A DNA stretch of 64,000 bases from Gonatopus flavifemur (taxonomy: Eukaryota > Arthropoda > Insecta > Hymenoptera > Dryinidae). The translations under genes and the position numbers were made by a program. Shown piece by piece: positions 14,398 to 51,755 of this stretch. The notes under the pieces are model-generated. The model had not been told where the DNA came from and made no database searches. It worked only from the letters and a program-made list of their open reading frames with translations. Each line of letters begins with the position of its first letter. Position 1 is the first letter of the stretch. The stretch covers positions 992,001 through 1,056,000 of the forward strand of contig JAFFJZ010000053.1 in NCBI GenBank assembly GCA_018340375.1, written 5' to 3'.

Positions 14398-14400
14398 GAG
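14350..14400. repeat. (GA)n microsatellite
   Basis: About 50 bp of GA dinucleotides at the 5' boundary of the truncated LINE. The Ser-Leu repeat it encodes in the LINE frame is a by-product and not part of the protein. Confidence 0.9.
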
Positions 14401-16297: not shown

Positions 16298-16498
16298 TTT
16301 TTTTTTCCATTTTTTTTTCATTGGCTCAAATGATGTATAAACATCTCAAGAATGATATCAAACAACATTTATTCATGAAAACATTTTTCAAAGACCCCTA
16401 ATGAATAAATTTTTGAAGCAACTCTAGGTGCTTCGAAATGACAAATTCTGATTTTTTCAATGATGTACTGATTTTGAATTTTTGACTCTACTAACGGT

Positions 16499-16616
16499 GG
16501 TAGGGGTTAATAGACCCGAATGGTAGTAAGCCCGAAGGGCTGTTGACCCGAAAGTAATAGACCCGAATAAAATTAAACCCGAAGGGCAGTTGACCCGAAT
16601 AGAAATGAACCCGAAT
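16499..16616 (+). repeat. Left terminal inverted repeat of the giant MULE
   Basis: Seven CCCGAA motifs start at 16515, 16531, 16547, 16562, 16578, 16594 and 16610, so spacings are 16, 16, 15, 16, 16 and 16 bp. The right end shows the same array in inverted orientation. Such phased short repeats are likely transposase binding sites (inference). Confidence 0.85.
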
Positions 16617-18748
16617 AATGCAATAATGATTTCAACATAGAGTGGGAACTGAATATTTAAAAAAAAGTGAGTTACAAAATCAAACACAGAGGACACTAGA
16701 TAAGTATTCTCAAAAAATTATTAATACTGAATTTTCGTTTATTTTTTATTTTCAAAGTATATTCTAAATGTTATAAATTTTTTTTTGTATCATAAATAAA
16801 TATATTCACAGATAAAATATTTTAGACATATGCATCATAATTGAATCAATGTATAAATTGCAAAGAATGATAAAAGAATATTAATTTGATAAAAATTTAT
16901 TAAAAATTTTGAAAAATTATTTTTGTGGCAAAAATTGAAATTCACAATCTAATGTTTTGATCAATTGCTTCAACAGTTTATCAATGATCAATTTAGTTCA
17001 GTGATCAATTTCAACAGTTGTAAATTGAAAAAACAAATGTATCAAATGTGATTTGGTTGATAATTTAGATTATCTAAAGTCTAAAACGAAATTCTATACT
17101 GTCAAAAACTTTATCGTAAATTATCCAGATAAGAAATGGAGATCATAATAATCTTGTGCAAATAGTGTCTCCAAACACAGGGGAAATACATTTAAATTTT
17201 TGAGAATCTTGAAAGAATGTTGGTGTGAATATTGTAACTTTCAGCATAAGATTCCAATAAATTTTAATGTATTTCCTCTGCATTAAAAATATTACTTTTA
17301 CAAGACATATTTTCAATTTTTATATAGATAATGTACATTAACTTTTCTGATTGTATGCTGTATGCAACATCAAAAAATATTTTTGAGTATTTAAAACAGG
17401 TTTCACTTATTTTATAAGTTGAACAGACATTTATGCATTTCCACATTTTTCTGCTGTAGTTAGAGATATAGACAGAAAACATTTTATAAAGAAAAATACA
17501 AAAATAGTGAGGGCCACACAATATTGGAGACCATATTAAAGAAGTAATTGATGCTGCAAACTTGTAAGATAGTTCTACATAAATCGCCATCAATGTTTTT
17601 GCAATTGAAACGAATATAAATAAGAGAATAGTCGCATGTTTTGGATATTGTGTTGAACTAATGATGTTGGGAAACCATAACTCAGCTTATATTCAGAAAT
17701 ATCCGAGATGCCTTACTCAGAATTCTTCAAGACATCTTATAGAATCCGAAAAGTTGTTCTTATCGTATTTCATCTCGTCATCATTTCTCTCGGATTTTAT
17801 AAGATATCTCAAAGAAGTCTTGGCAAGACATCTTCAAAATATCTTAATGTTAACTGGGAAGTAGAACGATGGTGGTACTGTTTAAAATTATCAAATACTT
17901 CCACAGGCATAAAAAATAAGACACTCAATCATGAATCAGAAAATGTATTTTTACAACACTAATTTCTTTGATCAGGCATGTATGGTAATGATGTTGGAAT
18001 TAAAATTCAGTGAACACATTCCAAGGATTGCTAATATACTTCAAATGTAATTTATAACTATATTGTTATTGTAAGATTAGATGTAAAAACTTATTGCTAC
18101 AAAAACCTATTACACGCATTTATTCGAAACAGTTTTCAATATTTTCATTTCAGTCTACGTAAATTATACAACTTTATATCAATTTTCAACTTGCTTAGAG
18201 TTATATGGATAAAAATGCAAAATATATTTTGAAGATGTTATGAACTAGTTCTCAAATAATAAACAGAGCAAAATTCCAATACTTTTTGTTCGTAATTTTT
18301 ACTTTCAACACTCAAGTAATGTGAGTAACTTTTTGTACTTGATACTGCACTGTAATTAATCCAATGAGAGACTATAGGAACTTTCGTACAAGATATCTAT
18401 GAATATTTCGCTTCACCTTACCTCCAATTACCAATTCTTGGAGAAAAAATTATCGCAATTTTAGTTTGTTGTTACATAAAATAATATATGCGTCCATTTC
18501 GCTGAAAATAAATAATTCAAAATCGGAGTAAATTACAAATTACAATGTACATAATGAAATGAACAGGTATAATTGTATCCATAAAGTAAATGAAAACAAC
18601 CAAAATAGTAGTATAAGTATTGACAATGAAATCTTAGAAATCACTCTTGCTTAAGAGATACATAGATATAAAACTGAAACACTTATAAAAGTACTTGAAC
18701 AACGAGCTTATTATGGGATGATCTTGTTGGTCTACAGTGAATGATATT
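16617..18748. other. AT-rich spacer, no gene seen
   Basis: Long A/T runs and short open frames without recognisable domains. A 109-codon minus-strand frame at 17593-17264 is rich in Ile, Tyr, Ser and Cys and resembles no family I know; I treat it as chance. Confidence 0.6.
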
Positions 18749-18749
18749 A

Positions 18750-19252
18750 GCCGAAGAGAACATGAAGCTTCAGCGAACTTTCAGATCAGATGTGTATAGA
18801 TCGGGCCGAAAATTCATAAGAGCTAACTTTTAGATTCACAAACGTTTGACAAAGGTTCTCCGGACGTTGAAATGTCCGCCTCGGAATACGTTCAGGAAAG
18901 ATAGATGGAACGTTCGCTGAAGGTTCATCGAAGGTTTGACGAAGCTTCACAAAAATATCTATACTTATATTAATTTTGATCAATTTATATGAAAAATAAA
19001 TTAATTGATAAACATAAATCATTATATATTAATCTAAGTATAAATGTGTTTGTGCAGCTTCCTCAAACCTTCGATGAACCTTCAATGAAGGTTCCATCTA
19101 TGTTTCCTGAAAGTATTTTGAGGCGGACATTTCAACGTTCGTAGTACCTTTGACAAACGTTTGTGAATGTAAAAGTTAGCTTTTATGAACCTTCGATCCG
19201 ATCTATACAGATCTAATCTGAACTTTCGCTGGAGCTTCATGTTCTCTTCGGG
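18750..19252. mobile_element. 503 bp foldback element, TA TSD
   Basis: Two arms of about 215 bp are inverted copies: CCGAAGAGAACATGAAGC at the left and the matching complement ending CTTCGGG at the right. Shared blocks include CACAAACGTTTG and ACGTTGAAATGTCCGCCTC. TA flanks both sides (18748-18749, 19253-19254). Ends are effectively [C/G]CC...GGG. Confidence 0.8.
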
Positions 19253-19515
19253 TATCAATTGTCGCAATCTGGTTGTTATAGAAGCATTTAATATCCATAA
19301 ATATTCAGCCAACGAGTAATTGACCAATTTATAATAATCCTATAAGATTTCATATATTGTTATAATGTTATATCAACTTACATAAAATTGAAAAAAACAA
19401 AAACGTAATATTCATGTGACTAGTCAATCAGTCTGTAATATTCAATTTAACGATAAAGCCTTCAAATACTGGATTATGCCACAGGTTCACGATTCTCATG
19501 AAAAATACATCAGTT

Positions 19516-21648
19516 TCAATGGTATTGCTCAACATGGTGCATCAAATCAATGATATGATTGAAACGTTGTTCACACAGACAACATTCTTCTTGTGCCATA
19601 TCATGATCTTCACTCTTAAATATTTCAGTCTCAGGATTAGAAAAAAGAGAGGATTTTGAAAAAAGCCCGAGCTCCTGCATATCACTGTATTGAGCTTCAT
19701 TATGCTCTCCTTCTTCTTTTTCTTCTTCTATATGCAAAAAATGTATGCATCGTTCATGAGATTTGTTCTAATATCACATTGTTGACTAGAGAAATAAGAA
19801 TTCTCCATAGATAATCCCATTTTTCGTGGAAAGTTTTGAGGACCTTCATTTTCTTGCTCTACATCTAAGGAATCATATACGTCAGCATTAGTGAGATTCG
19901 TATTGATTCTTGATTTTTGAACTCCCCGACTTGAAAACTGGTGATTTTCCCAACAGGATACAGTATCGCGTGGATCCATTTTTTCAACTTCATCGAAATC
20001 ATCTTCTGTTACATGTATAAGGAAAACGAAACATTAACAACATTACATTTGAAGAGAATGGAGATATAATTTCACGTATGAGTCATACCAAATATCTGAG
20101 GTAAATGCACCAATGATCGACACTGCGCACGATAGGGCGTACATGAATATTCGTCTGAGAATCACAATTTTTATTGAAAAATTGTTGTAATAGTGTTCGA
20201 AGACTGCTGCGTTTACCTTATCAACAATGCATAAAATATTTTCAAGACATTTATGAAAATAATGCGTGTTTCATTGAATGGAAGATGTTCACCTGTTTTT
20301 TCCTCTTCTAGATCCAAGAAAGTGTCCGCATCGTTCATAACATTTGGTTGTATATCATTTTTTTGACTAGAAGAACAAAACTTTCTCATAGGGAATTCCA
20401 TTCTTTTTAGGCCTTTCTGTGGACATCCATTTTCTGTATCTGAATCTGAAGAATCATATATTCCTACTTTGGTGAAATTCGAGTTGATTTTTGATTCTTG
20501 GACTCCCTGACTAAAAGACGGAAAATTTTCGAAACAAAATTCGGTATCTTGCGACTCCGTTTGTTGATTTTCTTCTACTTCATCCGAATGATCTTCTGTT
20601 ACATGAATGATAAGAAAAACCAGTATTAATAAAATTACATTTTCAAAAGACGAAAATGAAACTTCAAGTGTCGGTAATATAAATGTCTGTGGACATAGCG
20701 TACAATACTTCAAAAATACTATTTATACAAATAACCCAAGTAACACCAATGTGCTTGAAATATTCTCCGAACTTTCCTAGAATATTTAAACGTCCTGCAA
20801 ACATTTTCAGAACGTTTGACGAACATTTTGTGTTACTAGGGAATGCCTGTTCTATTGGATGTGATATGTTCACCTTGTTTTTCTTCTTCTGGATCCAAAA
20901 AAGTGCGCGCATGGTGGATCAGATTGGTTTTACTATCATACTTTTGACTAAAAGCACAAAACTTTTTCATAGGTAATTCCATTTGTCGTAGACCTTTTCG
21001 TGAAGATCCATTTTCTTCCTCTAAATCTGAAGAATCATATATTCCAGCTTTAGTACAATTCGAGTTGGTTTCTGATTCTTGGACTCCCTGACTTAAAGAT
21101 GGAAAATTTTCGAAACAAAATTCGGTATCGTGCGACTCCGTTTGTTGATGTTCTCCTACAACATCCGAATGATCTTCTGTAACATGGATGATAAAAAAAA
21201 CCAGTATTAATGAGAATCAATTTTCAAAAGACCAAGATGAAATTTGAGGTGTTAGTAATATAAATGTCTATGGACATAGCGTACAATACTTTAGAAATAC
21301 TATTCATACAAATAATGCCTGTTCTATTGGATGTGATATGTTCACCTTCTTTTTCTTCTTCTGGACCCAAAAAAGTGTACGCATCGTGGATCAGATTGGT
21401 TTTAATATCATATTTTTTTCTAGCAGAACAAGAACTTTTTGTAGGTAATTCCATTTCTCGTAGATCTTTTTCTGGAGATTCATTTTCTTTCTCTGAATCT
21501 GAAGAATCATGTATTGCAACTTCAGTAAGATTTGAGTTGGTTTTTGATTTTTGGACTCCCTGACTTGAAGACGGAGATTTCTCCGAAGAAGATTCAATAT
21601 CGTGCGACTCCGTTTCTTGATGTTCCTCTGCTTCATCCGAATGATCTT
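19516..21648 (-). repeat. Tandem array of 303 bp exon cassettes ending in a C2H2 zinc finger
   Basis: Cassettes A (21648-21346), B (21176-20874) and C (20595-20293) are each exactly 303 bp, start AAGATCATTCGG after an (A)CAG-type acceptor and end before GTGAAC donors. All are phase 1-1, so any number can be included without changing frame. The fourth (from 20005) has lost its donor and reads on to a terminal exon encoding a classical finger (C-x2-C-x12-H-x4-H, around CCLCEQRF) and a stop at 19516. Each cassette encodes ~101 acidic, Ser-rich residues with conserved GVQ(E/K)S, DSSD and EEEK blocks. Function unknown; the finger suggests DNA or protein binding. Confidence 0.75.
20735..20841. mobile_element. 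107 bp MITE, CCCAAGTAACAC ends, AA TSD
   Basis: Left end CCCAAGTAACACC, right end GTGTTACTAGGG, AA duplicated at 20733-20734 and 20842-20843. The neighbouring cassette repeat provides the empty site (CAAATAATGCCTG near 21310), so insertion and 2 bp duplication are shown directly. It sits in the intron between cassettes B and C. Confidence 0.9.
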
Positions 21649-24600
21649 CCGTTACATGAAATTACGTTTTCAAAAGATGAAGATGAAATTTTACGTGTCA
21701 GTAATACAAAATGTTTGTGGACATAACATACATTATTTTGAAAAAAGTATTTATACAAATAATGCGTGTTCTATTGAATGAGAAATGTTCACCTTTTTCC
21801 ATTTGTACAATGAAGCTTTCAGTAACTTTCTTCATATAATTGATTACTATAATCCACATCTCTTCATAGCCAATACGATGATTGTCTAGATCATCCCATG
21901 CTTGTTTTATATTTGCGTCCATCATAGCACTTCTGTTCCTAATCCGTTTTGTAACTTTTTGACCCAAACAGAGACTTTGAAAATCAAAAAAAGCAGAGGT
22001 TTGAACTCGAATCAGGCCCTCTGAAAATGTTCATAATTTAATATGAAAATAGATCTTAGACTGAACAATATTCTCAATATATGTTCTCATTCATCATAAA
22101 AACAAACGAAATCTCACTATATAAGGCCACTGCAAAATGAAATAGTAAATATTTCTTGGTGAAAAATACCTAAAAACACCCATATTGTGGGATGAGTCGC
22201 CATCTTCTCTTTTAAGCGCCGATGATAACGTTCCAAAAAATTATTTGTTCGATGAGAAAGTCTGTATACACTAATGATTTCCGGTGTTACGCGTTTAATC
22301 CAGAATTTTTCAAAATAGGCAAAGAATTCATGAAGTTTCATATAAAGTGTGGCATCAACATTCGAAATGATATTTCGATATTGATCATTGAAGGCAGCTG
22401 ATGGAAATAACGCTAAACCCATCAATTTGGTGAGTACCAATTCCGTTTCATCATCACACTTTTGATTTTTTATGATTTTCATTTTTCTAGCTTTTTTACG
22501 TAAGTCCTAAAATTATTCAATTGAAAAAATAATTATTTGGTTCCTAAACGAACTTTTAAAAAAATAGAATTTACAAGAAATAATCATCATAAAATTCCAT
22601 TATTAAAAAATGGATTGAAGTTTGAATTTGATGTAATTATGTTTGTTCCTTTTTTCTTTCTTTTTTATTCATTTGTCCAAACGGTTTTACACATGTTCCA
22701 CAATTGTGAATGTGCGTTAACTACGCCCAAGTAATAAAACGTTACAATCGAGGACAGCAGGTTGATTTGATCCGTGAAAAGATACTTTTGATAACTTGAG
22801 GAATTCTACATTTTTATTAGTCAATTTCATGACATTACTGCGATCAGTAGTCGATTTCTGTTTTTTGAACTCAACAAAAGTACTCTTTCAAGGCTTAAAC
22901 CCATCCTCATACAGCAAATTTTGATCCAGATGTACTCATAAACAGTTTTTCATGAGTTCATTGGGATATGTTTTAAGAGTTACCACTATGACCATGCAGA
23001 ACGAGTTCTTCATGAATTTCTGGCACTAAAAAATAATTACCAAGAATTATGAATTTCTTCCGAATTGACATGATGGGAATTGATTCCAGGCATGCTTCTG
23101 CTGTGTCAGTCCATTGTACATGTTATGTCTTTATTTAGAAAGATTTGTCCTTTGAGGTTCAATTTATTAAAACTGCACTGTCGTGTTCAAAATCTTGGAT
23201 TTGAAAATCCTAGTCAATCGTAGAGAGAATTCAAGAGTGAAAACATATTAGATTGAGAATTTTTTAGAAATGGACCCGTAAATTCTGGATTTAGCACAGG
23301 TGAGGAAGTAATCCATGCGTACTTGTGAACGTATGTGAACTATGTAAAGTACTCACATGGCAGTAATGAAAGAAACATCCATTTCATTTCGCATTTGGAT
23401 AGTGTGTTTTTGAACTATTTTGAAGCCCAATTTCATAGTCTGAAACAATTTGAGTTAGATTCAATCCTGGCGCAACAGTATTTTTCACAAATCCAAGTAC
23501 ACTGTTGTATGCTGCTTGGGTTTTTCTAGACATCAAGACCCACACGAAAGGTAATGCCTGGAAACAAATGACAATTCAGATATAACTCCATACTTGAAAT
23601 CATAATTTGTTCTGCAACTTTAATGACGTCATCTTAATCTGTTCATCATGAAAAAATACATTGCTACTTGCTTAAGTTAATTGTAGGTACCCAGCTAACC
23701 AAGTCTGATAAGTAAGTGGTCAATTATTGCCCAATCAGATTGGGTAAGATTGATCAATAATTGTCCATTTCTATGTCCGCATTAGCGACCAATAATTGAT
23801 CAATTTTTGTGGGCCAGTTGATTGCCCAATTACAGAGCAATATTAGGTCAACGATATGGGCATAGGTGCTGCCAAAAGTGCTCACAGAAAGTTGCTCATG
23901 ATTTGGCAATTATTGGGCAATCATTTTGGTTTGAGATTGAATGAGGATTGGTTATTTATTGAGATACTATAAATAATGTAATCATCCTGAAATACTAATA
24001 ATTCAAGCGTGAAAGAATTTTATTTGAATAAAAAAGTACTCTATTTATTTGCACTTTTTTCTTAATTTCAACCTTTTTAGATGGAATCCGTACACATTTG
24101 CTTTTTTATATAATCATATCTTATTTCTATAATATTTTGTGGGTTATAAACTCTTTATAAGCAAACTAATGATTCAATAAAAACATAATATCATGGAAAA
24201 TTCTTATGTGTATAAAGCGAGTGTTTTGATCGATTTTTCCACTGGCAAATTATTATTAGATCGCTTCAACCGTTTTATGTAAATGATATTCAATTAAATG
24301 AATCAAACTTTGGATTGAAAGATCCAGAATTTATTAAAAAAACCCATGTCTGGTATATTTGTTATTTATTAAAGTGGTTGTAATCGATTAAACAATTTGT
24401 TTGTCAGCTAATGAAAACCTTATATTCAGATTTTTTTGATATTACAACAAATTTAAGCCGTCTTTAAGCATTTTGAAACCAGAGCCGATTTCTGTGATTG
24501 ATTCAAAAGATTTTTTCATCTAAAGATCCATGTAATTAATGGAATATCAATTACGTGAAACGATTGAAAGCATTCACTAATTTTCTAGAGAAAAAATCGC

Positions 24601-25241
24601 CCAGGGTATACCCTCAAATTGGTATGACGAATATAAAGTTTCTATTATGTTGTTAAAACCACAATGGTTTATTGAAACAAATTCGTAATAAAATACTACA
24701 AAATTCTATATAAAATCAATGTAAGTCTTCGAAATTTAATTATTTTTAATATCAAATTCCGGTCAAATATCAGCAGAAAAAATGAAATCAATTATGTGTC
24801 TTTTCATGTTCGATTACAAATTCATTTCAATAAAAGATTCCAATTGCGGAAAAATATTTCTATTCTAATTATGTTAATTTAGAAGTCTCTTCAGCTTAAA
24901 ATATTATCAGTCAACGAATTTGTACTAAATTTCTCATATCACATGTCAAATATACTAGAAAGTACACAGTGGGTGTAACAAGTCCGATAACAGTCCTAAT
25001 AGAAATACCTTTTATATTTTACTGATAATGTTATTTAAGAATTAGTAATTCATCAGAATGATAAAAGAAACATTTATGATTGGATACAGTCGGAGAAAAA
25101 TATTAGAAATTCATCAAGGACAGAATGATTCAAAATATTTCCGTTGAAACTGTAATCGTACTTGTTACAAACACTATACTTATCATGACGATATTTATCC
25201 ATTTTATCACGCATTAAAAGTGAACATGAACCGAATCAACG

Positions 25242-25504
25242 TGTTTCTCAAGATATCTTTACGAAAAGCCTAAAGTGTTCAATGCCACACTTTTAGATAT
25301 CTTAAACTCTTCTTACATGTAAAAGATATTTATAAGGTAATCATAAGTTCTCTTTCCACATATTCTGAAAGATATCTTAAAAGAGGTCTTATAATTATCT
25401 TATAGATCTCTTTTAGATCTAAGAACAATTTAAAACATTCAAAAGGTATCTAAAAGTGTTGCAGAAGACATTTTAGACCTTTCGCAAAGATGACTTGAGA
25501 AACG
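25242..25504. mobile_element. ~260 bp palindromic MITE
   Basis: TGTTTCTCAAGATATCTTT at the left pairs with AAAGATGACTTGAGAAAC at the right. Many AAGATATCTT and TCTAAAAG blocks pair within it. The TSD is not clear. Confidence 0.6.
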
Positions 25505-25890
25505 GAATGTTTTATTGGGAAACATCGACATCTCGAAATATCAAACTCATTTGTCCAAATGAAAAATACATTCAAGTTTGTCAATATTGTGAAAAGTTTC
25601 AGTTCATACTGATTCAAGTGTCTACACGGTGAACAGTAATCAGTAACTGTTACAGCGAATAAAAATAATCATCAAAAAATTAAAGGCATATCACCCAACA
25701 TGGCGTTTCGTAGTACTCGTTACTGTTCTGTCATTAATGACGAACTTAATTACAATATCTATGATAGGACAATGATTTTCATTATCCAATTATATTTTCG
25801 TTTGTTCTTGAATCGATTATTGTCATTCAAAATAACGATTAATATTTACTTTTATCAGAGTACAGCGATGTGTAGGTGGACTCCCAATAC

Positions 25891-26091
25891 ACCGAATGAT
25901 TATTGCACCGAAAATTCATATTCCGAACGCCGATAGGAAGAAAGTTGATTATGCGGAAACCAGTCAAATCCGCCAGCCTTATGCGATCCATGAGAAATCG
26001 CCACATTTATCCAATCAAATATATCCGCCATAAAAATCTGTCAGTCTATCAGCGTTCGGAATAGCAGTTTTCGGTACAATAACCATTCGGT
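25891..26091. mobile_element. ~200 bp MITE with ACCGAATG ends
   Basis: ACCGAATGATTATTGCACCG at the left matches the complement of the right end (CGGTACAATAACCATTCGGT). TTCCGAACGC/GCGTTCGGAA blocks also pair. TSD not identified. Confidence 0.6.
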
Positions 26092-26746
26092 GCGGGAGAG
26101 TTGGTGTATTAGATGCTCACCGTAGTGTCTATACTATCCGGTATATCTTACACTTTGATTACCCGTATGGAAATGTTTTGCTCAAAAATTTTCGCAAAAC
26201 CATGAATACTTTCTGAAAAACTTCGTATTCGTATTCAAAACTGTGACGAATCTGTAATGAATTGTCAAAATTTCTCTAGCTGTTGAAAACTCTTGAAATC
26301 CTATGAATTAATTCGTATGCTATATGCTAGTAAGATGTGTAAAAAAGTATTTGAAAATTTCATCATTTTTTTTCTAACAGTCAGAAAAATGTTAGAAATT
26401 TATTAGTTTGGCTACAATTTTTCCTGATCATAATTTTGTTCTTATTTGTCTGGCAAAAATGAAATGGCCCTGGAAAAAATTAATATAAAATGTCCTCATG
26501 TTATTGGATTCTTCAGTTTGTCAGAGTTTCTCAGACTTTTGCAGAGAAACTACAAATTTTCAACTCATGGTTTACAGAAATTTTTCAGCTAAATATTTCC
26601 ATACGGGTAGTAAGTTCAATTTTTACATTACCGATATTTAACATTCATTACGCAGTAATGCATCGTTACGAGTTTGACAAATATTTACATGCACATCTTT
26701 CAGGTATATAATGTTAAAAGAAAACTATTTTATGAATCCCTTGATT

Positions 26747-28969: not shown

Positions 28970-29050
28970 GCTAAAATTGAAACACAAAAAAGATATTAAT
29001 AAAAATCCAATGGCATACAAATGTGTGAAAACCTTGCACGATTCATTCAT

Positions 29051-30748
29051 TTCTCATGCACTTTAGGTTAATATTACTCAATTAAGAAAAATTGTGAACA
29101 AGAGACATCCAATAAGATGAGGTGAGGTGCTTCAAAATTGTGGTACCGAATGTGTTTGATACAGTATGCTTGCTTATAAATGTTAATAGCAATTCAGGTT
29201 ATTAATTGTTTCCAAGGGGAATGCAATAAACAATTGGTACGTATATGCGCAAACGTTTTTCAATAAAAATAATGAACATAATTGAAATGACAATAGACAA
29301 CAATACACACAATACACCAGCTCAGAGAAAGTTCAAAAAACGTTCAATTGGAGCTAGAAGAATTGATTATGTTTGCTCAAGGACTATTTCTGAACTTTTG
29401 TGCTGTGTGGGATTACTCTCAATCAAACAAATATACTGTTCAATGCTGTACTCACTGTAACATTTTTTTTCATCAAAAAATCCCGCGATAGTGGTCCACC
29501 GACGTTATTATTTTAAAGAAATTTAGTATCAAACGACAGTATTAAAAATGCTCACAATTAAATTGCGAACGATGCCGGACAAGCAGTGTTCAGGAAAATT
29601 TATATACATTTTACAAACAGGAAAAAAGGATACATAACAAATTCATCTTCATGTTTTCAGATACAATATATACAAAATAACGTCTCGAATCAAAACACAC
29701 GAATCAAATTACTACCACGTATCTCAACATCTTTGTTGCTCAGGTTTCAGTTTTCGCAGGAAGAAAAAACATGACGAAATCCCAAAAAAACCGTATTTGA
29801 ATAACAACTGAGTACAAAATGTTATAATTCCATTATTCACTCATTAAATGGGAATTCCTTCATTGACTATACATTATTATCTTTGGTGGAATAAATGTTT
29901 CATTTGTCTGTCATGAGTTGAACATAATTTGAACGAAATTGAAATCTCTCATTATCTATTATGAAATTTGTTCTCGCAAATTGACAAACTGGGCAAGATA
30001 TTCATTGCAAATGAAGTTCAAAAAGATGAATGAAAAAATACTTTCTGACTAACACTGGGGGAAGTGTTTACGAAAGATTTGAAGAATATGCAAGTTTCAT
30101 ATTTTAAATTGTAAATGAACCTAACTCTAATGTCACACACCAATTTTTTCGAGATGCAAAAATGCTGGATGTTTCCTCATTTTTTTTCATAAAAAGTTTG
30201 ATTGTAACCCGATTGAGGTTCGTTTTCCATAAAAGATGATTGCAACTCCTTTAGTACTGTCTCTTGAACTGTCTTGGAGGGAATCAAGGCCCACAAAGAC
30301 AAGTATGATGGATATGTACGAATTTTTAGATGTGTATGGATATAGATACGATCTGCATTAATACAAAGAGAATAAATAAATAGATGGATGAAGTATGTTT
30401 TGGTTTCTACATTACAAAACGAATTGGCTCGTATTTCAGTTAATCGCAACAAAAAAAGTAGGTGTCTACTGTGTACTGTATCCGTTTCAAGCCAAAAGGT
30501 CGTATGTTTAAAAAAAAACACGTTTTTTTCTTATATACTTAAATCTAAATAAGCTTCGTACATGTATTTCGATGCAGAAAATCATTGAATTGTTGAACAT
30601 TATTAAGAAAAACTCATGTGAAATTAACGGTATTTGTATCATTCAACATGTATAACTTTGGATGAAATACTCAATATCTTGAAACTTCAAAATATGGAGA
30701 TACAGCGTTTTGGCTTAAGACGGCAGTTTATCTCATATCAAAACGAAA
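29051..30748. other. Intergenic AT-rich stretch between the DUF4806 and tnp2-like genes
   Basis: No recognisable coding sequence. Short frames here lack domains and have repeat-like composition. It probably holds the promoter and 5' exon of the DUF4806 gene and the 3' UTR of the tnp2-like gene. Confidence 0.55.
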
Positions 30749-32959
30749 TTAGTTGTTGTGCAATAATTGTGCTACTACAAAGGTTCCAGGTTCTGGATTT
30801 TCTGATACAATATCGTCATCATCATCGTCTATTTCATCGTTCAAGTTTTTCTGATTGATGATATCAGTATCCTCTTGATAGAAGGAATTCCAAAAAGGCA
30901 TACGAAAACAATTGGTGTGTATATCAGCAAGAGGAACTACAATCAACTTGTTGGAAAGATTTGAGCATTTATAAATGCCGTTGAATGATGAGGGCACACC
31001 AATGTCATAGAAGTTTTCAATGGAATCGAACGTTCTCGCGACAATAAATCCATTATTCTGTTGAAACAGTATATTCTCAATAATGCAAATAGAACCATTG
31101 CGTAACATGCAACAATTATCAGTGGAATTAACGGAAATGAATATACCGTCCCATTGTACGCTTTTGTATTGTGAGAAATGTGACATTGACTGTGGAATGG
31201 GACCATTTGAATGTTTGTGCAGAAATTTGGGCATTTCAACTGAACTGGTGTTTGACTGTTCCTTCAATAATTCATTTTCTTTCAGACGGTTGAAAATTTC
31301 TTTCAACCCATTACCGGGTTTTTTTGAAAGTTTACGGAAGAAAGACATATGATTTTCATACGGAAAAGCAGATATATTGTCTAGACTACCGAATCTTTTT
31401 ACATCTTCAGTGATATGTAACAAGCCATGGAGATTGTAAGAAGCAAAAGACGTTCCGTAAATCTCAATGCTTGTCGAAACAAAACTTTTTATTGCTTCCT
31501 CTGCGAATTCCAAATCTGTTGTGGTAATGGTTTTCTTGGTGAGACAACGGATTGACCCATGTAACAATAAAAAGTTGACATAACTTTCGAATGGTATCAC
31601 CCCGAATAGAACGACTATACCAGTATATAGAAGAAAGAGTCTGAATTCAGTTGCTTTATAATTGGCAAAACGAGTAATTGGAGACGGGCGACGAGAAAAT
31701 TGTCGTGGACAGTAAAGAGCTAATATCTGTAACCTTTTTGAAATAATGTCTATGAATCTAGCCGAAAGTTTGTTGTCTTTCTTGAATTTGCCAACTATCC
31801 ACGCTTCAATCAATTTTTTCGTAATCCCCAACAAGACCAGATGCATATAATCGAAAACGCTGTCGCAGACTACGTCATCGAAAATTTCGATAAGGGGGCA
31901 TCCAATTCCGCTTTTAGAATGCTCATCTTTTAAGCTGCGTGAAACATATTCTTCATGTGTTCTTGGTGGACTGTGCAAATCGATATATGCGAGTTTGTTG
32001 TTGCTTCCTGTTACACCAGAAACCTTACACCTTGAACAAGGCTTTCTAGATCCATGACTTCTGTGATTTAGAACATATGCCCTTGCAGGAGCATCAGCGA
32101 TAAGAGCGTGGAAACGAACAGGGATTATTCGATTTCTAAAGGAAATACCACCTTCAGACTTGATACACCTTATTTCTTCAAGAAAAGTTCCGAACAATTC
32201 ATAGAAATTTTGTGGTTTACCTTTACCGAAATAAATGCCAATGATTTCTGGCTTGTATTTATTAATGTTAACAACCGCGAACATAATGGGCCAATATTGC
32301 GTTTTGGTAGACTTATCGCCTTCCCCTCCATCAGTGGAAATATCGATTTGGAGAAATGGAGGTAAAGAATCAGGATCGACTGTTTCCAAAATTTTTTCCA
32401 GACTTTTTCTAAACCCGATATGCAAATATTCACCCGGAGGAATCGAAGTCAATTTTGCGGATTTTCGAGGAGTATTCATTAATGTTCGCGCATCTTTTGG
32501 TAAATACTGGAAACATGCATGTGATCTTATCAGATCAAGAAACCCTTGTCTCTGAGTAACATTCAAGTTATAGCCGATAAAGTAACGTCTTAATTTCTGT
32601 ACAAAAAATTCATTTTCGTCAACTGCTTCCTCAAAATAAGTAGTGGCATCGTCAACTACATTCTGAGAAACAGTTTCGAATTCCGCAGATTTTGAAGTAT
32701 CTTCAACATCCTCACGCTCTGAGCAGATTGATTCGGGCTTATCGGTGATTCGAGATTCGGCATCTATTTTCATTTGATTTGATTGAACTACCGTTACCTG
32801 AACACTGTTTACATACGGCAATATGTTTTTCTGAAGTGATACGATATTTTTGGAAGTATCGTTAATTCTTTTTAAAATTCTTCTTTGCTGTCTTTTACAA
32901 AGATTTTCAAAGTTTCTCCTACTCCGCGGAACTGTACAAGTTACTTTGCGAAACCGCAT
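30749..32959 (-). CDS. tnp2-like transposase (CMC/EnSpm-type), intact 736-codon frame
   Basis: The uninterrupted frame starts at ATG 32959 and ends at 30749. It resembles animal relatives of the plant CACTA TNP2 transposases: a basic, Arg-rich N-terminus with Cys (NLCKRQQRRILKR), an acidic segment, then the core with LQIDISTDGG, WPIMFAVV, a C-x2-C (PCSRCKVSG) and the signature FDYMHLVLLGITKKL, followed by a C-terminal part and an acidic tail with six Asp. Such proteins excise and insert elements with CCC- or CAC-type ends and 2-3 bp duplications. There is no stop or frameshift, unlike nearly every other transposase gene here, so this may be the youngest or a functional enzyme. Acidic residues of the DDE core cannot be assigned by eye. 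Family call is from motif memory. Confidence 0.65.
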   Translation of the reverse strand: MRFRKVTCTVPRSRRNFENLCKRQQRRILKRINDTSKNIVSLQKNILPYVNSVQVTVVQSNQMKIDAESRITDKPESICSEREDVEDTSKSAEFETVSQNVVDDATTYFEEAVDENEFFVQKLRRYFIGYNLNVTQRQGFLDLIRSHACFQYLPKDARTLMNTPRKSAKLTSIPPGEYLHIGFRKSLEKILETVDPDSLPPFLQIDISTDGGEGDKSTKTQYWPIMFAVVNINKYKPEIIGIYFGKGKPQNFYELFGTFLEEIRCIKSEGGISFRNRIIPVRFHALIADAPARAYVLNHRSHGSRKPCSRCKVSGVTGSNNKLAYIDLHSPPRTHEEYVSRSLKDEHSKSGIGCPLIEIFDDVVCDSVFDYMHLVLLGITKKLIEAWIVGKFKKDNKLSARFIDIISKRLQILALYCPRQFSRRPSPITRFANYKATEFRLFLLYTGIVVLFGVIPFESYVNFLLLHGSIRCLTKKTITTTDLEFAEEAIKSFVSTSIEIYGTSFASYNLHGLLHITEDVKRFGSLDNISAFPYENHMSFFRKLSKKPGNGLKEIFNRLKENELLKEQSNTSSVEMPKFLHKHSNGPIPQSMSHFSQYKSVQWDGIFISVNSTDNCCMLRNGSICIIENILFQQNNGFIVARTFDSIENFYDIGVPSSFNGIYKCSNLSNKLIVVPLADIHTNCFRMPFWNSFYQEDTDIINQKNLNDEIDDDDDDIVSENPEPGTFVVAQLLHNN

Positions 32960-34059
32960 ATTTTGATGTGAGCCAAAAAATGATTAATTATAACTTCGGT
33001 TGTAAATGCAACATGTCCAATGAACGCTCCATTTGTTGAACAAATCTAAAAAAATATATTGATTATGCATTACATATGTATACGAATCAGACTAATGGTT
33101 TAGAAAATACTATATTTTTATAGGAACTGGACATAGTGTTAAGACTTGAAAAAATTTTTCTACAATGCATTTTCCACGTCGAAAATCGCTTGCATGAACT
33201 ATAATTGAAGTATTGGAATTTTCGAAGAGGTAGAAAGCCTTTTGTATGGTTCAGACATCGCTGATTGACTTTAGTAAATTTTTTTCAAACTTTGAACGTA
33301 TTTTTCTCAAAACAACGCAACGTTTTTTTGGCCGGCAGCAATGCGTTCTGCAGAACCACTGGGCCGATGTTCTTGAAACTTTAACCACATATCTTACACA
33401 TGAATAACTTTCGCGCATTCTACAATTATATTGAAATTTCAATTTTTACTATATTTTTGGGGAAAAAAAACAGTGAAAAATAGTTTCAATTTTGTGTTGT
33501 TTTTTCATCTCAACCATTTTTTTCATTCATCAAAAAATATCAACCAATTTCATCAATTTTTGCCGGCCTGAATTTTTTCGAATCCTGGTCAAAATGGTAA
33601 GAGATGTTCACACGAAAGGTCCTTTAATTTCAAGACAAACAGAAAAATGAATGCCACGCGGAAAAATACTTCACTGATAACTACAAGTACACTACGTCCT
33701 CGTTCCTAATTACCTAATTATCATGAAAAAAAACTTATGCGAATTCATATAAATACAATATCAAGTGCTAAGAACACTGATGGATTCATTGATAAAATTA
33801 CAACATGAAAGATCATTTATTCAACAAAAAAAAATAATAATTTTTGCAGGTGATATTTTATGAAATTTTATTACCCTAAGAACAATTTCAGACCGAATCA
33901 GTCAATTATCGCGATTTTTAACCAATGTTTATGAAAAATTTATACGATTGAAATCGTGATATTCCAAGTTTTTGCCTATTAAATGTTATAAAACCTGACC
34001 AGAATTTTTTTCTAATTCATCCACATGCATTTTATAAAAGATAATAACCTCGAGAGCAT

Positions 34060-34250
34060 CCCGTAGACCCCAGAGTTACTAGATCCCCCTACCCAAAATA
34101 CTCAAAGATGAGTCAATGGAATGGAATAAAACAACCAGCCAGACTTTATTTCATATGAATACAAGGTCTGGCTGGTTGTTTTATTCCATTTTATTGATCC
34201 ATCTTGGAGAATTTTGGGTAGAGAGATCTAGTAACTCTAGGGTCTACGGG
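34060..34250. mobile_element. 191 bp palindromic MITE, CCCGTAGACCC ends, AT TSD
   Basis: Arms CCCGTAGACCC...GGGTCTACGGG extend into AACAACCAGCCAGAC and its complement around a short loop. AT is duplicated at 34058-34059 and 34251-34252. Confidence 0.85.
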
Positions 34251-34317
34251 ATGCGCTTAATCACAATTTTAAAACAGAATTTATCAATCCTCGCGATTAC
34301 TAACTAATAATTATCAA

Positions 34318-34423
34318 CCCTTTAGTGCTGCAGCGGGCAAAACCCGACCGGGCAAGAAAAATGGGGGTGACGCTTACCTGTGGTGATTCGTAGGAGTGGG
34401 GAATTCCTTACAGTACTAAAGGG
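34318..34423. mobile_element. 106 bp piggyBac-type MITE
   Basis: Ends CCCTTTAGTGCTGCAG and TTACAGTACTAAAGGG are typical of piggyBac-like termini. TTAA follows at 34424-34427; the left flank is TCAA (34314-34317), a one-base variant of TTAA. Confidence 0.75.
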
Positions 34424-34814
34424 TTAAAGATTTATAGGGTTGATATCGCGATATTCCGAAATTTACTGCATAAACAGTTATATATAAGAACTAATCCAGA
34501 ATGTTTGTAAATTTTCCCAAATGCATTTTTAAGACATATAATAACCCCAACAGCAACTCCAGATCGAATTCATCAATTATCGCAATTATTGAGTACCGTT
34601 TATTCGAGGGTTGAAATGGCAATATTCCAAGTTTTCCTCTATAAAATGTTTCAGGAAATGATCGGAAATTTTTTTAATTTTCACAAATAAATTTTCATGA
34701 ATAGTAATAAACCTAAGCTCAATTCAGATCGAATTTATCAGTCATGACCATTCTTAACCAATATTTATGAAGTATTCATACGATTGAAATCGCGATATTC
34801 TAACTTTTCCTCTA

Positions 34815-35048
34815 CACTGAGAGGAAACATTCCCGGGAAAAATAAACCATTCAATTGAAAAGTGGTAACAAAATACTTGATTGATTTGGACGAAATTTTA
34901 TTGATTCAACAAAATATGTATTCAATCAAGCAAATATTCAATATATTGTAGAATATTTTTTCAAAGCAAACTTGATTTAGAACAATTGAGGATTTTTTTT
35001 TGCGACTATTCAATTTGATATTCTTCTTGGAAATTCTTGCTCCCAGTG
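34815..35048. mobile_element. 234 bp MITE, CACTG ends, TA TSD
   Basis: CACTGAGAGGAAACATT at the left and TTGCTCCCAGTG at the right are imperfect inverted ends. TA flanks at 34813-34814 and 35049-35050. Confidence 0.65.
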
Positions 35049-35108
35049 TACAAAGAATTATGGAAACTCATCAGGAATTCTTTTGAATGTTTTCAAACGC
35101 ATTTTCAT

Positions 35109-35421
35109 CCCTTATGAAAAAACCCGATATCGGAATTTCATCGTTGAATCATCAATTGTATCAATACTATCAAAAATCTATCGTTTGGTTTCATTATCAG
35201 ACAAGTCCGATAAAAATACGAGATCTGCGATAATTATCCAATGTAAACCCGATATCGGGAAATCATCGGCTAGCTGATCGGTTTTATATCGGATAATTAT
35301 CGCAGATTTCGTATTTTTATCGGACTTGTCTGATAATGAAACCAAACGATGGACTTCTGATGATATTGATACAGTTGATGATTCAACGATGAAATTCCGA
35401 TATCGGGTTTTTTCATCAGGG
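35109..35421. mobile_element. 313 bp near-perfect palindromic MITE, CCCTTATG ends, AT TSD
   Basis: Arms of about 130 bp begin CCCTTATGAAAAAACCCG and share GGTTTCATTATCAGACAAG and TCCGATAAAAATACGAGAT-type blocks. AT is duplicated at 35107-35108 and 35422-35423. The transcript would fold into one long hairpin. Confidence 0.9.
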
Positions 35422-35728
35422 ATGAAAGATAATGATAAGATGTATCTAACAACAATGACCGAACTCCTCATCTATCGAGATTGTTGAATAATGTTTATCA
35501 AGGATTTATAAGGTTGAAATCTTCATATCCCAAGTTTTCCTCTATAAACATTTATAAGAACTAATCATATTGTTGTAGTCAATCTTGATATGTACCGGGA
35601 AGATTATTGGTACTATACCAGTTTTCTTTATGCCTGATCGTTACAGTGTTAATTATGGATACATCATAACACTGATAGCATCGTCAATTTGAATGTAGAA
35701 TCATATGAGAAAATGATTTAAAAAATCT

Positions 35729-36172
35729 CTCACCTGAATAATCACAGTATCAAAGTCAAGAAAAAGTAGCCCACAGGATAGTAGATACCAGGATTTTTCT
35801 CTAAAATGAAGTTGGATTAAATTATATTCTGATACTCCTAATACGTATTTTGGAGTACCAAAACAATAAGTTTCAAAAAAATCTGAAAAATATAAATCAA
35901 AATTACATTCTAAAATCTTGTTGAACGTAAGTGGATCAGTCGAAAATGTCTCACCTAGACAGAGTATCGAAGCCAAGGGAAAGTAGCATACAAGACAGCA
36001 GACACTGGGAATTTTATTCCAAAATGAAGTTGGATGAAATCATGTTCCAACATTGTCAATATGTGTTCTGAAGCACCAAAACAATAAGTTCCGAAGAAAC
36101 CTGTAGAACAAATCAAAACTACTTTCTGCAAACTTGTCGAATATGAGTGGATCGGTTGAAAATGTCTCACCT
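35729..36172. repeat. Tandem ~220 bp repeat with splice-like motifs
   Basis: CTCACCT(A/G) recurs at 35729, 35950 and 36166, with blocks AAAATGAAGTTGGAT and CAAAACAATAAGTT in each unit. On the minus strand each unit contains a hydrophobic frame (around FxTYCFG and IQLHF) followed by AG|GTGAGA. This could be a triplicated exon or a plain tandem repeat. No family is recognised. Confidence 0.55.
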
Positions 36173-37400
36173 AGACAATCAGAGCAACGAAGCTAAAAAT
36201 AAATACTCCAATGGCACATCATACGGATTTTTTCAATTCCTTCCTCAAAGTAAGTTACGTTGAATATAAGAGGACAGTGATATGCTGTGAAACAAGGCCA
36301 TTAATCAATCATTGATATGACAAAAAATTTTTAAATGTATCCAATCCAATTCGTTAAAAAATCAACAATTAGATGATTGTATTTACTTACAGAATTTCAC
36401 TGTGTTTTAATTTCTTCTTTGTAAAATAATGGAGATGGAGGTTAAAAGTTAACCACGTGCGCGGCGTACACGTTGCGATATAACCTTGTACGTATCAATA
36501 GGAATGTAATCCCATTTTTATTCGCATATTTCGAAGAGTTGTTCCATCACATAAGTGAATCACGTAAGCAAAAAGTCACATAAATAAATTTCACACCGTA
36601 AAAGTCTAGATTCACGTGTACACTAATAATAATCGACGAAAACGAATTAACTGTTTCAAAAACAATTCAAAGTCTTTACACCGCACAACATGCTCGAACA
36701 CTGAAGCGTCTTCGTGGCAGCGTCTTCTTCTTCGCGCCACAGATGGTGTTCGAAAACTACCCATCCTTGGATTTGTTCATATTCATTATACCGCACCACA
36801 AATATACGCAAGTGGGTGCCGCGGGAAATTCAAATAAACTACAGTCACAATACGACGAAGATATATAAATTGATAAACCACAAGACTTTTTGTAGTGAAC
36901 GATGTATAATAAATGATTTTGTACGATTAATATGACATCCAAAAAGGCGAAATTCCATATCACCTATAGAAAATAAGCGATAATTCACATTTTTAGATCT
37001 TCAGTTATCGACGTACGTTAAATGATCAATTTTTGGTCAATTCTATGGGCCACGAGATTGATCAATAATTGTCCATTTCTATGTCCGCATTAGCCACCAA
37101 CAATTGGTCCTTTCATAATGATCAATTTTCGGTCAATCATTACCCACTTGATGGACATGCGCACAAAGGTCGTACATAAATCTCAAATCATTGCTCAATT
37201 ATTAACCAATTTCATTGGAATCAATCAAATTGGCCAAAGATTGGAACCAATCCTTGGTTGGCTGGGTATTGGTTTCACTTATGACTGTTTTTCTGCTATT
37301 TTCAGCTTAACACACTGATTGAATAACATTAGTATCCCTTCGCTCATCCAACAGTGCGTAGAAAAATTAGCAATCCTACATTATACTACTGAAAACCTCC
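36173..37400. other. Right subterminal region of the putative tnp2-like element, no gene seen
   Basis: Contains a slightly GC-richer patch (36430-36840) that could be promoter-like, then repeats of GATCAATTTTTGGTCAA type from 37020 to 37266. No recognisable coding sequence. Confidence 0.5.
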
Positions 37401-37819
37401 TCAACTTACGTGATTAAATTTTGTCACCATCATAGTGAGCAATTGGTACGTCCCTTGTAGTCGTGGAGTAACTTTGAACGTGGCATCCACGAAAAATACA
37501 TTTTCACTTTTGATCGCTGATATTTGTGAAACGAAACACTTGTCCCAAAAAAGCACATTGGTGAAGTCGTCGTTAGATATGGTTTCAACAGTCAGTTGCC
37601 CATGATCGTAAGCCAAAAGATTTTTGTTTGTGTCACTTGCAAAAAATGATCCAAAGTCTTGTAAAGCTTTGGGAACAGGAGGTCGTGCATCATTTCTCCA
37701 AGTTCTTAATGTGCTTTTTAGAGAAGGATATGGTTGGTTCTGTGCAGCCTCTGGATACCTTAAAATATATGACGCTTAATATTCATTCGTTTAGTGCATT
37801 AATCCTTGATATGAGAAAA

Positions 37820-39120
37820 TGAACCAAAAAATATCAATTAAATGACAATGATTCTATAAATGAGACCAACATATACTCATGAATTTGTTTATAAGTAAAT
37901 TTTAGAATGTTACATTCGATGTTGATTGCGAATATTACATGCAATTTCAAACAGTTAGAATATCACATTTTCAAACAGTAAAATGCATTCCTTATATTCA
38001 TTACTTCACGGCATTTTAAAAAAAGCGCATAAACGGAAAAAGAAATTTATGACATGCAGTGAATCAATCACCAGTCGTGAACTTTGTGGATTGGATTGTA
38101 TTTTAGATTCAATTGGCAGTGTTATAATCGTAACACAAAGTTTTTGCTCTCACCATTGTTGAAAATAAAAAAAAAGTATATAAAGTATATTACACGGTTG
38201 ACCACGAATAACTATTAAGCCCCATGAAATTATTAAAGGATGATTCATATATACAGCCCATAATTTTTTTCCATATTTCAAACATTCAAAGCTTGAAAAA
38301 TCTGATTTTATCCAAATCTAGAAATCATCTTCTGTTGAATACAAGTTATAGACTTTCAAAAACACGTTCTTCTTGAACGTCTCATGTAATATATGGAGGA
38401 CCACAATAGCATGTCCCAAACAGCACCGAGACTTGTCAAAACGTTTTAAAAACATGTCAATAGTTCCGCAGATTTTAGTTTCCGGAAGCACGTTTTCTAA
38501 ACGTCTCAACAACATTTATTTATTATGCTGGGATACACGTTTTGGAAACGTTGTTTGAACATGCTACGGTACGTTTTCAGAATGTTCTCAGAACATTATG
38601 TGAAAACCAAGTATTTCATTCCTAATCTGTACAAATGTGTATTCATAGTTTTACAGGGGGTATAAATATTAAACAATTATAAGAATACATATTGTCTTGA
38701 ATATTTAACAAGACTTTAATTCACAAGTTGGAAACTATTGCAAAAATGTAAATTATCAAGAATTAAGTCAATAAATCGAGAGTCATATAACCTGCAAATT
38801 GAAGCAAAACAAAATTCCACTACATGCAATGTATTCAAGAGATGCACATGTGATTTATCTGTACACGCGCCACTGCAATTCATTTATAACTCTTCCAAAT
38901 GAAGAATATGAAAAGATTTAGCACAAGTTTAATCAATATTAAATTTGCACTGTAAATGTCCCATAAGCATTGCATGAAAACCTGAAGATGACAACAGCGG
39001 AGAGTTGTACATCCCTGGTATGTACATGCGACGTTTATTGAACATTCCGAAATACTTTTAGGACATTCCAAGGATATTGATAGTACCTCCCAGTGCTGCA
39101 TGGGATATACATTCTCATGA
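37820..39120. other. MULE intron sequence with short degenerate inverted repeats
   Basis: AT-rich; no coding exon is seen between those at 37758-37410 and 39360-39151. Two weak CCCA...TGGG pairs (38413-38552, 38958-39104) may be old MITEs, but their TSDs do not match. Confidence 0.45.
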
Positions 39121-39462
39121 ATAAAAAATTATAAATGAAAAAATATATACAATAATTGGAAGTTTTCATAATGATCCTTAGGATTTTTCAAGGTGGTTTG
39201 GATTTTAGATTTCAGTTCGCTTCTGAACATCCGGAGGGAAATGGTGTTAGGATCGGCTGCATGGAACTTGTGAGGTTTGGATAATCTGTAATTCTTGTTC
39301 GAGAGGTCAACTTTCGCTCTTGCAGAACATCCATACTTTCTTTCCTTGCATTCCAAGTACCTACGTTATACAAAATGTCATGTGTTATCTGTTGAATTTA
39401 ATTATTCAATAAAATTGAAACAAATGTAACATTCAAACATAATCTAAAAAGGGTAATCAAAT

Positions 39463-39675
39463 CCCAAGTAGCACAAAAACTTTTCAAATATACTATGGTT
39501 ATTCTATGAAAAGGAAAGGAATCTACAAATGACACTACTTTGGATAAATTAAAGATATTGTATGGAGGTGCACAGCATATAATTGTTCGAAACAGTCTCA
39601 TTTGGAGGTTCTACGCATGTTCATAAGCTTTTTCAAACACGTTCTTAGAATTTCTAACCTCTTGTGTTACTTGGG
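39463..39675. mobile_element. 213 bp MITE, CCCAAGTAGCAC ends, AT TSD
   Basis: Starts CCCAAGTAGCACAA and ends CTTGTGTTACTTGGG; AT flanks at 39461-39462 and 39676-39677. It lies in the intron that splits the FLYWCH finger of the giant MULE. Same terminal type as 20735 and 27040. Confidence 0.85.
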
Positions 39676-40626
39676 ATCGATATATACTCCAAAAGAACAC
39701 AAACCTCAATGTTTGCAAACATCCAAAAATATTCAATGAACGTTCTTGAAGTTTTGTATTCTTTGAGAGCAAATGTGCGCTTAGGGCATACGAAAAGAAG
39801 AATGACAAAGCAGATGTACATGTAGCAATTCAGTTTGTGAACTGATCAATCTTATTGTCATAAATGAAATGCAAAGTAACTTACTTAGTGCCTTTGTGAA
39901 TTTTATTTACAAAATATTCATAATTGTCGAAAACAAGTTCTGTACTGGTTAAGCGACTCTTCTTTTGAGGTACCTCCAACAAGATATCGCATTCCTAGAA
40001 GTACGGAAAATCAAATATAACATCAAGTTTCATGTTTTATCCAAACGATATCCCTCACAAGATATATTTGTTATGAGACGAAAAATATTTTAGTTAATTG
40101 CGAAAGTAATAAATGTATTGAAAAGTAATCACTCACTCTTCGATCAGCAGGTTTTTCACGTTTTCCCATCTGGAAGTCCCTTTCTTTGTTTACATCAATA
40201 GGAAAGATCAAGGATGCACTGAAATCAAGAAAAAATGCAACATTTGGCGATGAATTCTTTGAAAGTGGTAGAAAATCGCCATTTTGAGGTTAGCTCATTC
40301 TTTCATCGCAAATTTCTTGTACTTTACACGTCATAATAATTAATATACTTTGATTTTCAGGAATCAAATTCAATTCTTAATTCGAATCATCAAAAAAAAG
40401 ATTTAAAACTACTCACCACTTGTTATGTGAAAATTATAAACGATATGTGGTATGATGCGGGACGTACATATACATCACATTCACCTGTTAAACAATTGAA
40501 CTTTTCACTTTGCTTCTATTTTGTTTTCAAACTCAAACGGAAAAAGAATTTTATATCATGTGACATCTAGCGGCAACATCAAAATTTTGTTCCATATAAT
40601 CCATCTTAGAAACGTTATATCAATGA

Positions 40627-40743
40627 TTCGGGTTTATTTCTATTCGGGTCAACTGTCCTTTGGGTTTAATTTTATTCGGGTCTATTTCTCTCGGGTCAAC
40701 AGCTCTTCGGGCTTACTACCATTCGGGTCTATTAACCCCTACC
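40627..40743 (-). repeat. Right terminal inverted repeat of the giant MULE
   Basis: Inverted copy of 16499-16616, differing at about ten positions. Seven motifs of CCCGAA type (one CCCAAA, one CCCGAG) keep the 15-16 bp spacing. The transposase ATG is 458 bp further in, so this terminus may also serve as its promoter region. Confidence 0.85.
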
Positions 40744-40941
40744 CTAACGGTCACTATAGTTCCTAACTGAGGTACAGATGGCGCTCATTGGTACATAGAA
40801 GCAGTTATTGAACATTAGGTTGAACTAACTACATTAGAACAATTCAATCTCGAAGCACGTGCAGCATTCGTTGTTGGCAAATTGTACTTGTGTATTCCTG
40901 TAGTTGCTTTGCTTTTGTTTATGAACTTTTAGTTGTGCAAC

Positions 40942-51649: not shown

Positions 51650-51755
51650 TGTGTTGGAGGTGTCTATCGGAATGGATGACAGGCAAATAGGGGAACAGAT
51701 CAGGGAAATATTAGGAGAGGAGGGGAATGGGGAGGAATGGATGGTTAGGTTGGAG

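Follow-up and report, generated by a model that had tools for sequence, protein, structure and literature searches.

Is the 24,245-bp unit that lies between matching inverted termini in the dryinid wasp Gonatopus flavifemur a single giant transposon, and what might the evenly spaced motifs at its ends be for? The unit occupies positions 16499 to 40743 of a 64,000-bp stretch of contig JAFFJZ010000053.1 (C353:992001-1056000), which we call the window and whose numbering is used throughout. On the basis of its termini, its transposase, and its copies elsewhere in the genome, we assign a probability of roughly 0.78 to the following reading: the unit is a Mutator-like element (MULE) of about 10.67 kb with a FLYWCH-bearing transposase, its ends carry phased sites for that transposase, and it has been swollen by a nested transposon.

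The termini are 121-bp inverted repeats with 94% complementarity. Motifs of the CCCGAA type start in the left terminus at 16515, 16531, 16547, 16562, 16578, 16594, and 16610, giving steps of 16, 16, 15, 16, 16, and 16 bp. The right terminus carries its motifs at the identical seven positions from the tip (17, 33, 49, 64, 80, 96, and 112), five of them exact and two with one mismatch (CCCGAG and CCCAAA). An earlier reading of this DNA, made from the letters only, had described seven such motifs per end in just this stepping together with an exact 8-bp target site duplication, and both descriptions proved correct, CTAACGGT abutting both tips. The same 8-mer occurs twice more within the window, at 46840 (+) and 4841 (-). 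When 100 windows of 64 kb were simulated with the dinucleotide frequencies of the real one, the longest CCCGAA chain at steps of 15 to 17 bp was one motif in 99 windows and two in the remaining one, against seven in the real window, which rules out chance runs of motifs. Further CCCGAA matches at 5935-6184 were examined and form no array. With a helical repeat of 10.5 bp, the motifs of an end fall at 0, 1.52, 3.05, 4.48, 6.0, 7.52, and 9.05 turns; motifs 1, 3, 5, and 7 lie together on one face of the helix, and motifs 2, 4, and 6 lie on the opposite face.

What protein does the element encode? Minus-strand exons (Table 1) join in a single frame with GT and AG borders, and the joined protein scored above the Pfam cut-offs for both MULE (PF10551; 40.1 bits, cut-off 27.6) and FLYWCH (PF04500; 28.1 bits, cut-off 23.6). 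In the Pfam search of single exons nothing rose above cut-off, with E5 alone matching MULE at 18.5 bits. The residues D209, D274, and E393 and the pair C295/H298 of the joined protein occupy columns that are invariant in an alignment of four sequences. The Pfam domain and these catalytic residues uphold the assignment to MULEs made by the sequence-only reading. Exon E5 of the window copy contains an in-frame stop at a place where a sister copy, L109, is open, and because of this stop the window copy is probably dead by itself. Relatives of the transposase numbered 3 in a single-protein search and 16 in a profile search (2 being the profile's own rows), the latter including proteins of Leptopilina boulardi and Cotesia glomerata; all named proteins in the profile search are from wasps. 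Ants, bees, and parasitoid wasps supply most of the named relatives of the transposon proteins of the window; the others come from some beetles, a moth, an aphid, and ticks. Two MULE relatives (P0129 and P0130) combine a RING finger with the MULE domain. Pattern matching for transposase relatives in viral contigs gave 43 matches, none of them confirmed; a pattern scan of viral contigs matched 100 stretches, the pattern being unspecific, and a search of a phage collection with the terminus returned four records at E values of 2 to 5, which are short chance matches.

We propose that a cut-and-paste, FLYWCH-bearing (Muta1/Phantom-like) MULE of about 10.67 kb would have inserted at this site and produced the 8-bp duplication, and that a DNA transposon of a different kind, 13.58 kb long and making a 2-bp duplication, would then have entered the intron between exons E4 and E5 to give the 24.2-kb unit. 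The CCCGAA motifs at the ends are most likely binding sites for the FLYWCH domain of the transposase, and the comparison made in the sequence-only reading with binding arrays on alternate faces of the DNA is plausible. Because the 16, 16, 15 steps alternate motifs between the two faces of the helix, several transposase molecules could assemble at each end before synapsis and cutting.

If the motifs are recognized as an array, is their spacing retained in other copies? The first terminus has at least 65 matching places in the genome, in line with the recurrence that the sequence-only reading had named as a check, and the terminus of a second MULE, beginning at 51756, has 73. Among these places are two families of short miniature inverted-repeat transposable elements (MITEs) of about 209 to 226 bp, with motifs at 17, 33, 49, and 64 and mostly at 80 too. 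The family-1 sample comprised 18 MITE-like copies of about 225 bp, of which two fall short of this by 16 bp; the family-2 sample comprised nine short loci, namely eight two-ended MITEs and L147, where a single end of a further copy lies. For want of a usable tip, the left ends of L147 and L152 were excluded from the end counts. Positions 17, 33, 49, and 64 all carried a motif with at most one mismatch in 32 of the 36 ends of family 1 and in 15 of the 16 of family 2; with the positions shifted by 1 to 3 bp, no end did. Target site duplications in the 26 MITE copies were 8 bp long in 14 and 9 bp in 4, with no exact one in 8. Five copies are short by exactly one 16-bp unit (L111, L128, L148, L153, and L155), and all of these but L128 are flanked by an exact duplication of 8 or 9 bp, which suggests that loss of a unit keeps the register.

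The second MULE allowed the arrays of two families to be compared. It extends from 51756 to 79720 in window numbering (end at C353:1071720), measures 27,965 bp, and has a 9-bp duplication, AGGTTGGAG; its unoccupied site is visible in the left arm of an outer inverted repeat that surrounds the first MULE. Exons E2 to E6 of the two transposases are 41 to 54% identical (41 to 51% for E2 to E5). Between the two MULEs, motif columns are identical at 28 of 30 positions, the first 16 bp at 7 of 16, and the left-terminus spacers at 14 of 39, close to the mean of 11.0 obtained by shuffling (P = 0.18). Three other family-1 termini gave similar figures against family 2 (26 or 27 of 30 in motif columns, 13 or 14 of 39 in spacers). 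In register, 59 of 110 bases of the two termini match, compared to 42 at the best other shift. The expectation of the sequence-only reading that spacing is kept while the intervening bases drift was therefore borne out, both in other copies and in the divergent second family. Downstream of the transposase, family-1 copies carry tandem exon-like units, four in the window copy, three in L109, and five in another copy, L110. Tandem coding repeats stand in this place in family 2 as well (about 49 codons each; L146 100-1100), and those of both MULEs recall the minisatellite that follows the transposase in aphid Phantom elements (PMC6446971).

One potential explanation for the regular spacing is that it is the unselected remnant of a tandem duplication of a 47-bp unit (16 + 16 + 15). 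In Tandem Repeats Finder, each end of the first MULE showed periods of 47 and 16 and the second MULE a period of 16 only, and the MITEs that are exactly 16 bp shorter are what repeat slippage predicts. However, spacers between the families are at chance level, yet the motifs are almost identical and the register is kept; neutral sequence so diverged would be expected to have lost both. We therefore consider this explanation unlikely. A second possibility is that the ligand of the motifs is a host protein, such as a transcription factor for the transposase gene, rather than the transposase. Promoters are said to be present in long Mutator termini alongside transposase-binding sites (PMC3310237), but here the motifs are kept at both ends and in short non-coding MITEs, which need recognition by the transposase and have no need of a promoter. 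A host factor as the main ligand thus appears improbable, and we retain binding by the transposase as the preferred reading.

Is the 24.2-kb unit then one element? Sister copy L109 (on C229) is the same MULE and measures 8,467 bp tip to tip. It matches the window at 99.1% over 37265-40743, at about 97% over 19219-20734 and 20842-23689, and at 93.6% over 16496-17659, and it shows a clean absence of window 23690-37266, with nothing in its place. The window junctions read GTAGG-TA-[CCCAGCTAACCAAG ... CTTGGTTGGCTGGG]-TA-TTGG, whereas the empty site in L109 reads GTAGG-TA-TTGG. Since that site holds a single TA, 23690-37266 is an insertion of 13,577 bp flanked by a 2-bp duplication and located in the transposase intron between E4 and E5. 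Free-standing copies of the nested element occur on C391 and C355; the former, aligned with the window nest along about 13.6 kb, shows 56 mismatches and 24 gap columns, and the latter is flanked by a TT duplication. The tip-to-tip length is thus a composite, and subtraction of the 13,577 bp and the extra TA from 24,245 bp leaves a MULE backbone of 10,666 bp. Window 17660-19218 is also missing from L109 but largely present in L110. The latter copy is flanked by a 9-bp duplication, GTCAGATGC; window 22959-40042 is absent from it, and of one terminus only 46 bp are retained. The nest is 0.41% diverged from its nearer free copy, compared to 0.89% between the right part of the MULE and L109, consistent with arrival of the nest after the MULE.

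The 744-codon open frame of the nest has 211 relatives at E ≤ 0.001, and the 120 listed come from ants, bees, wasps, and other arthropods. Elements of the EnSpm/CACTA type (CMC) make 2- to 3-bp duplications and have ends beginning CACTA or CACTG. The nested element resembles them in its 2-bp duplication at two loci (TA in the window, TT on C355) and in the DUF4218 domain (PF13960) found in some relatives of its protein. It differs in its ends, which begin CCCAGC, and in its own frame, for which the Pfam search returned no match.

The sequence-only reading had taken the unit as a single giant MULE of 24.2 kb, and that part of it has to be given up: the nest-free sister copy and the free-standing nest copies rule it out. 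Could the unit nonetheless move whole, with the inner 13.6 kb and its genes as cargo? It runs unbroken from one matching terminus to the other and is flanked by an exact 8-bp duplication, the coding exons are undisturbed by the nest, which sits in an intron, and the second MULE is also large and has a duplication of its own. Against this, the inner block is a transposon in its own right, present in multiple copies and flanked by a separate duplication, it is less diverged from its nearer free copy than the MULE is from its sister, and the two sister copies measure only 8.5 kb (L109) and 7.5 kb (L110). A query spanning the right junction, with 40 of 402 candidates scored, matched in full at the window only, by its nest half at 38 places, and by its MULE half at 1 (L109); further MULE-half or whole-junction places are possible beyond the 40 scored. 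Nothing shows movement of the 24-kb unit, and we regard such movement as very improbable. A giant transposon has been described as one with a coding interior above 20 kb (PMC6431247); the interior here exceeds 20 kb but is not one element, 13,577 bp of it being a separate nested transposon. That the assembly has joined unrelated pieces is scarcely credible: a large inverted repeat does surround the element (1917-16279 versus 44904-51755), but the window contains no N, the ends of the inner block match those of the free-standing copies, the 2-bp and 8-bp duplications are exact, and the assembly, 636 Mb in all, consists of 402 contigs.

How does the ~10.67-kb FLYWCH MULE compare with known elements? 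Members of the MULE superfamily make duplications of 8 to 11 bp (PMC6446971), and we found 8 bp here and 9 bp in L110. FLYWCH has been called characteristic of Phantom (PMC3169594), although it is found in only some members (PMC6446971); an N-terminal FLYWCH (PF04500), the mark of Phantom/Muta1-like MULEs, is present in our protein. Muta1 of Aedes aegypti has nine 12-bp tandem repeats with spacers of 3 to 4 bp, Muta5 has nine 15-bp repeats, and subterminal tandem repeats are found in 10 of 12 long-terminus families (PMC5225508). Both Muta1 and Muta5 share with our element a FLYWCH and DDE transposase, 8- to 9-bp duplications, long termini in which a terminal motif precedes tandem repeats, and many short non-autonomous derivatives with often truncated arrays; Muta1 further shares the period of 15 to 16 bp (PMC5225508). 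The layout thus has a precedent. Muta1 differs in its length of 3.2 kb, its two exons, and its 10-bp imperfect palindromic tip (PMC5225508), compared to a backbone of ~10.67 kb, six or seven exons found, and a tip, GGTAGGGGTT, that is not palindromic as read by eye. Because of this tip we do not file our element as a Muta1 member. Unlike in Muta1, the core shared between families here is only 6 bp, and the spacers are at chance. Phantom MULEs (group 20) share duplications of 8 to 10 bp, termini of 18 to 613 bp, arthropod hosts, FLYWCH in some members, and, in aphids, a minisatellite after the transposase; the likeness is by described features, and a 16/16/15 lattice goes unmentioned in the portion of PMC6446971 used here. 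Tm1 of Meloidogyne likewise has a FLYWCH transposase, Foldback-like termini with an internal tandem motif, 8- to 10-bp duplications, and MITE derivatives, but its unit is mostly 14 bp with a loose length of 8 to 21 bp and a different motif (PMC3169594). Galileo of Drosophila shares long repetitive termini and has multiple sites for the transposase DNA-binding domain, as evidenced by footprinting and electrophoretic mobility shift assays; it differs in belonging to the P superfamily and in having three sites far apart with no short phased lattice (PMC3688188). Since Muta1 has an equal period and most long-terminus families have subterminal repeats, the architecture is already known, and what our data add is the conservation of register and core between families whose spacers are at chance level. 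Our literature search found no paper on helical spacing in MULE termini, and for large nested insect MULEs only a 2026 arthropod survey was to the point. That survey, in the part available, reports MULEs of 1.4 to 10.0 kb, with extension of only 5 kb per side of matches (PMC13359780). These flanks probably set its size ceiling, and the 10.67-kb backbone is at the upper edge of the arthropod sizes that it reports.

A number of observations count against the reading as a whole. Of the 36 family-1 MITE ends, 19 have an inexact motif at position 17 and 19 have one at position 64; position 80 lacks the motif, with three or more mismatches there, in 2 of these 36 and in 3 of the 16 family-2 ends. 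The perfect duplication of L110 lies beside a two-motif terminus, and a full array may be unnecessary for insertion unless the loss came later. The second family was noticed through CCCGAA matches in the window, so that the presence of its motifs is partly ascertained; its register and the kinship of its transposase are free of this bias. Both arrays start 16, 16, 15, 16 and probably descend from a single ancestral array, and the two families therefore amount to one independent comparison. The repeat lengths of Tm1 indicate that a 16-bp step is not universal. Finally, the flanks of L109 have no matching duplication as judged by eye, and divergence is the single line of evidence for the order of insertion. 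A broader proposal, which we put forward tentatively and as possible rather than probable, has two parts. The lattice would be a selected structural code in which FLYWCH transposases array on two faces of the DNA, with the register (about three turns per two motifs) kept and the intervening bases free. Large transposase introns would take in whole transposons, CMC-like here and Maverick/Polinton-like next door, and yield MULEs above 20 kb with their exons intact.

Table 1. Positions of features of the two MULEs and the nested transposon in the window.
Feature	Position	Strand
Left target site duplication of first MULE, CTAACGGT	16491..16498	.
Left terminal inverted repeat, seven CCCGAA motifs	16499..16619	+
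Four tandem exon-like units (581, 581, and 472 bp apart), acidic/serine-rich coding segments downstream of transposase	19680..21661	-
Transposase C-terminal exon E7, borders approximate	21827..21961	-
Transposase exon E6, W and catalytic E	22170..22506	-
Transposase exon E5, second catalytic D, C..H motif, one in-frame stop	23357..23557	-
Nested independent DNA transposon, 13,577 bp, TA duplication (23688-23689 / 37267-37268), 14-bp ends CCCAGC(T/C)AACCAAG	23690..37266	.
744-codon open frame of nested transposon	30749..32983	-
Transposase exon E4, first catalytic D	37410..37758	-
Transposase exon E3, bulk of FLYWCH zinc finger	39151..39360	-
Transposase exon E2, start of FLYWCH	39885..39994	-
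Putative first exon E1 (ATG); acceptor-like AG before it, so possibly internal	40137..40169	-
Right terminal inverted repeat, seven motifs in equal register (5 exact, 2 one-mismatch)	40623..40743	-
Right target site duplication of first MULE, CTAACGGT	40744..40751	.
9-bp duplication of second MULE, AGGTTGGAG; partner past window end	51747..51755	.
Left terminus of second MULE, motifs at 17, 33, 49, 64, 80, 95; at 33 CCCAAG, two mismatches	51756..51855	+
Second MULE transposase exons E2-E5 (52859-52939, 53024-53233, 55061-55405, 56081-56281)	52859..56281	+

The second MULE also holds foreign DNA. The intron that separates exon E5 (56081-56281) from exon E6 (71266-71619) contains a nested stretch with 151-bp inverted ends (57936-58086 and 70453-70601, 87%), which has frames for a type B polymerase (PF03175) and for an integrase (PF00665), both above cut-off, and which we take to be Maverick/Polinton-like. 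In both neighbouring MULEs, much of the size comes from foreign transposons in transposase introns. Further on, a 378-codon frame with DUF4817 above cut-off, presumably mariner-like, lies between 365-bp inverted repeats.

The outer inverted repeat around the first MULE pairs 1917-5339 and 14873-16279 with 51755-46349 and 46304-44904 at 95 to 99% identity; its arms differ by a 9.5-kb stretch present in the left arm only and a 1.9-kb stretch in the right arm only. Runs of the hexamers GTCCAC/ACGTGG were considered as a possible part of the element and dropped, being located in these arms. Each arm carries one frame with a long glycine-arginine hexamer repeat and a RING finger, 3256-3705 (-) and 48057-48545 (+), the RING call resting on PF13920 above cut-off in the former and on likeness in the latter. 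The left-arm-only stretch includes a third, more distant MULE transposase fragment at 9152-9804 (-), 31% identical to E5. A reverse transcriptase frame (PF00078 above cut-off) lies at 12222-13757 (-).

The terminal repeats of Foldback and Phantom elements as binding sites were called untested in 2013 (PMC3688188). Two MULE families in one genome that have kept motif and register while their spacers became random provide natural evidence for terminal repeats as binding sites, and with a 6-bp core and a register now named, the question is simple to address by a binding assay. The case also illustrates how nesting can lead to the miscalling of a giant transposon. Since the 2026 survey extended its matches by only 5 kb per side, MULEs swollen by nests such as these would probably escape it (PMC13359780).

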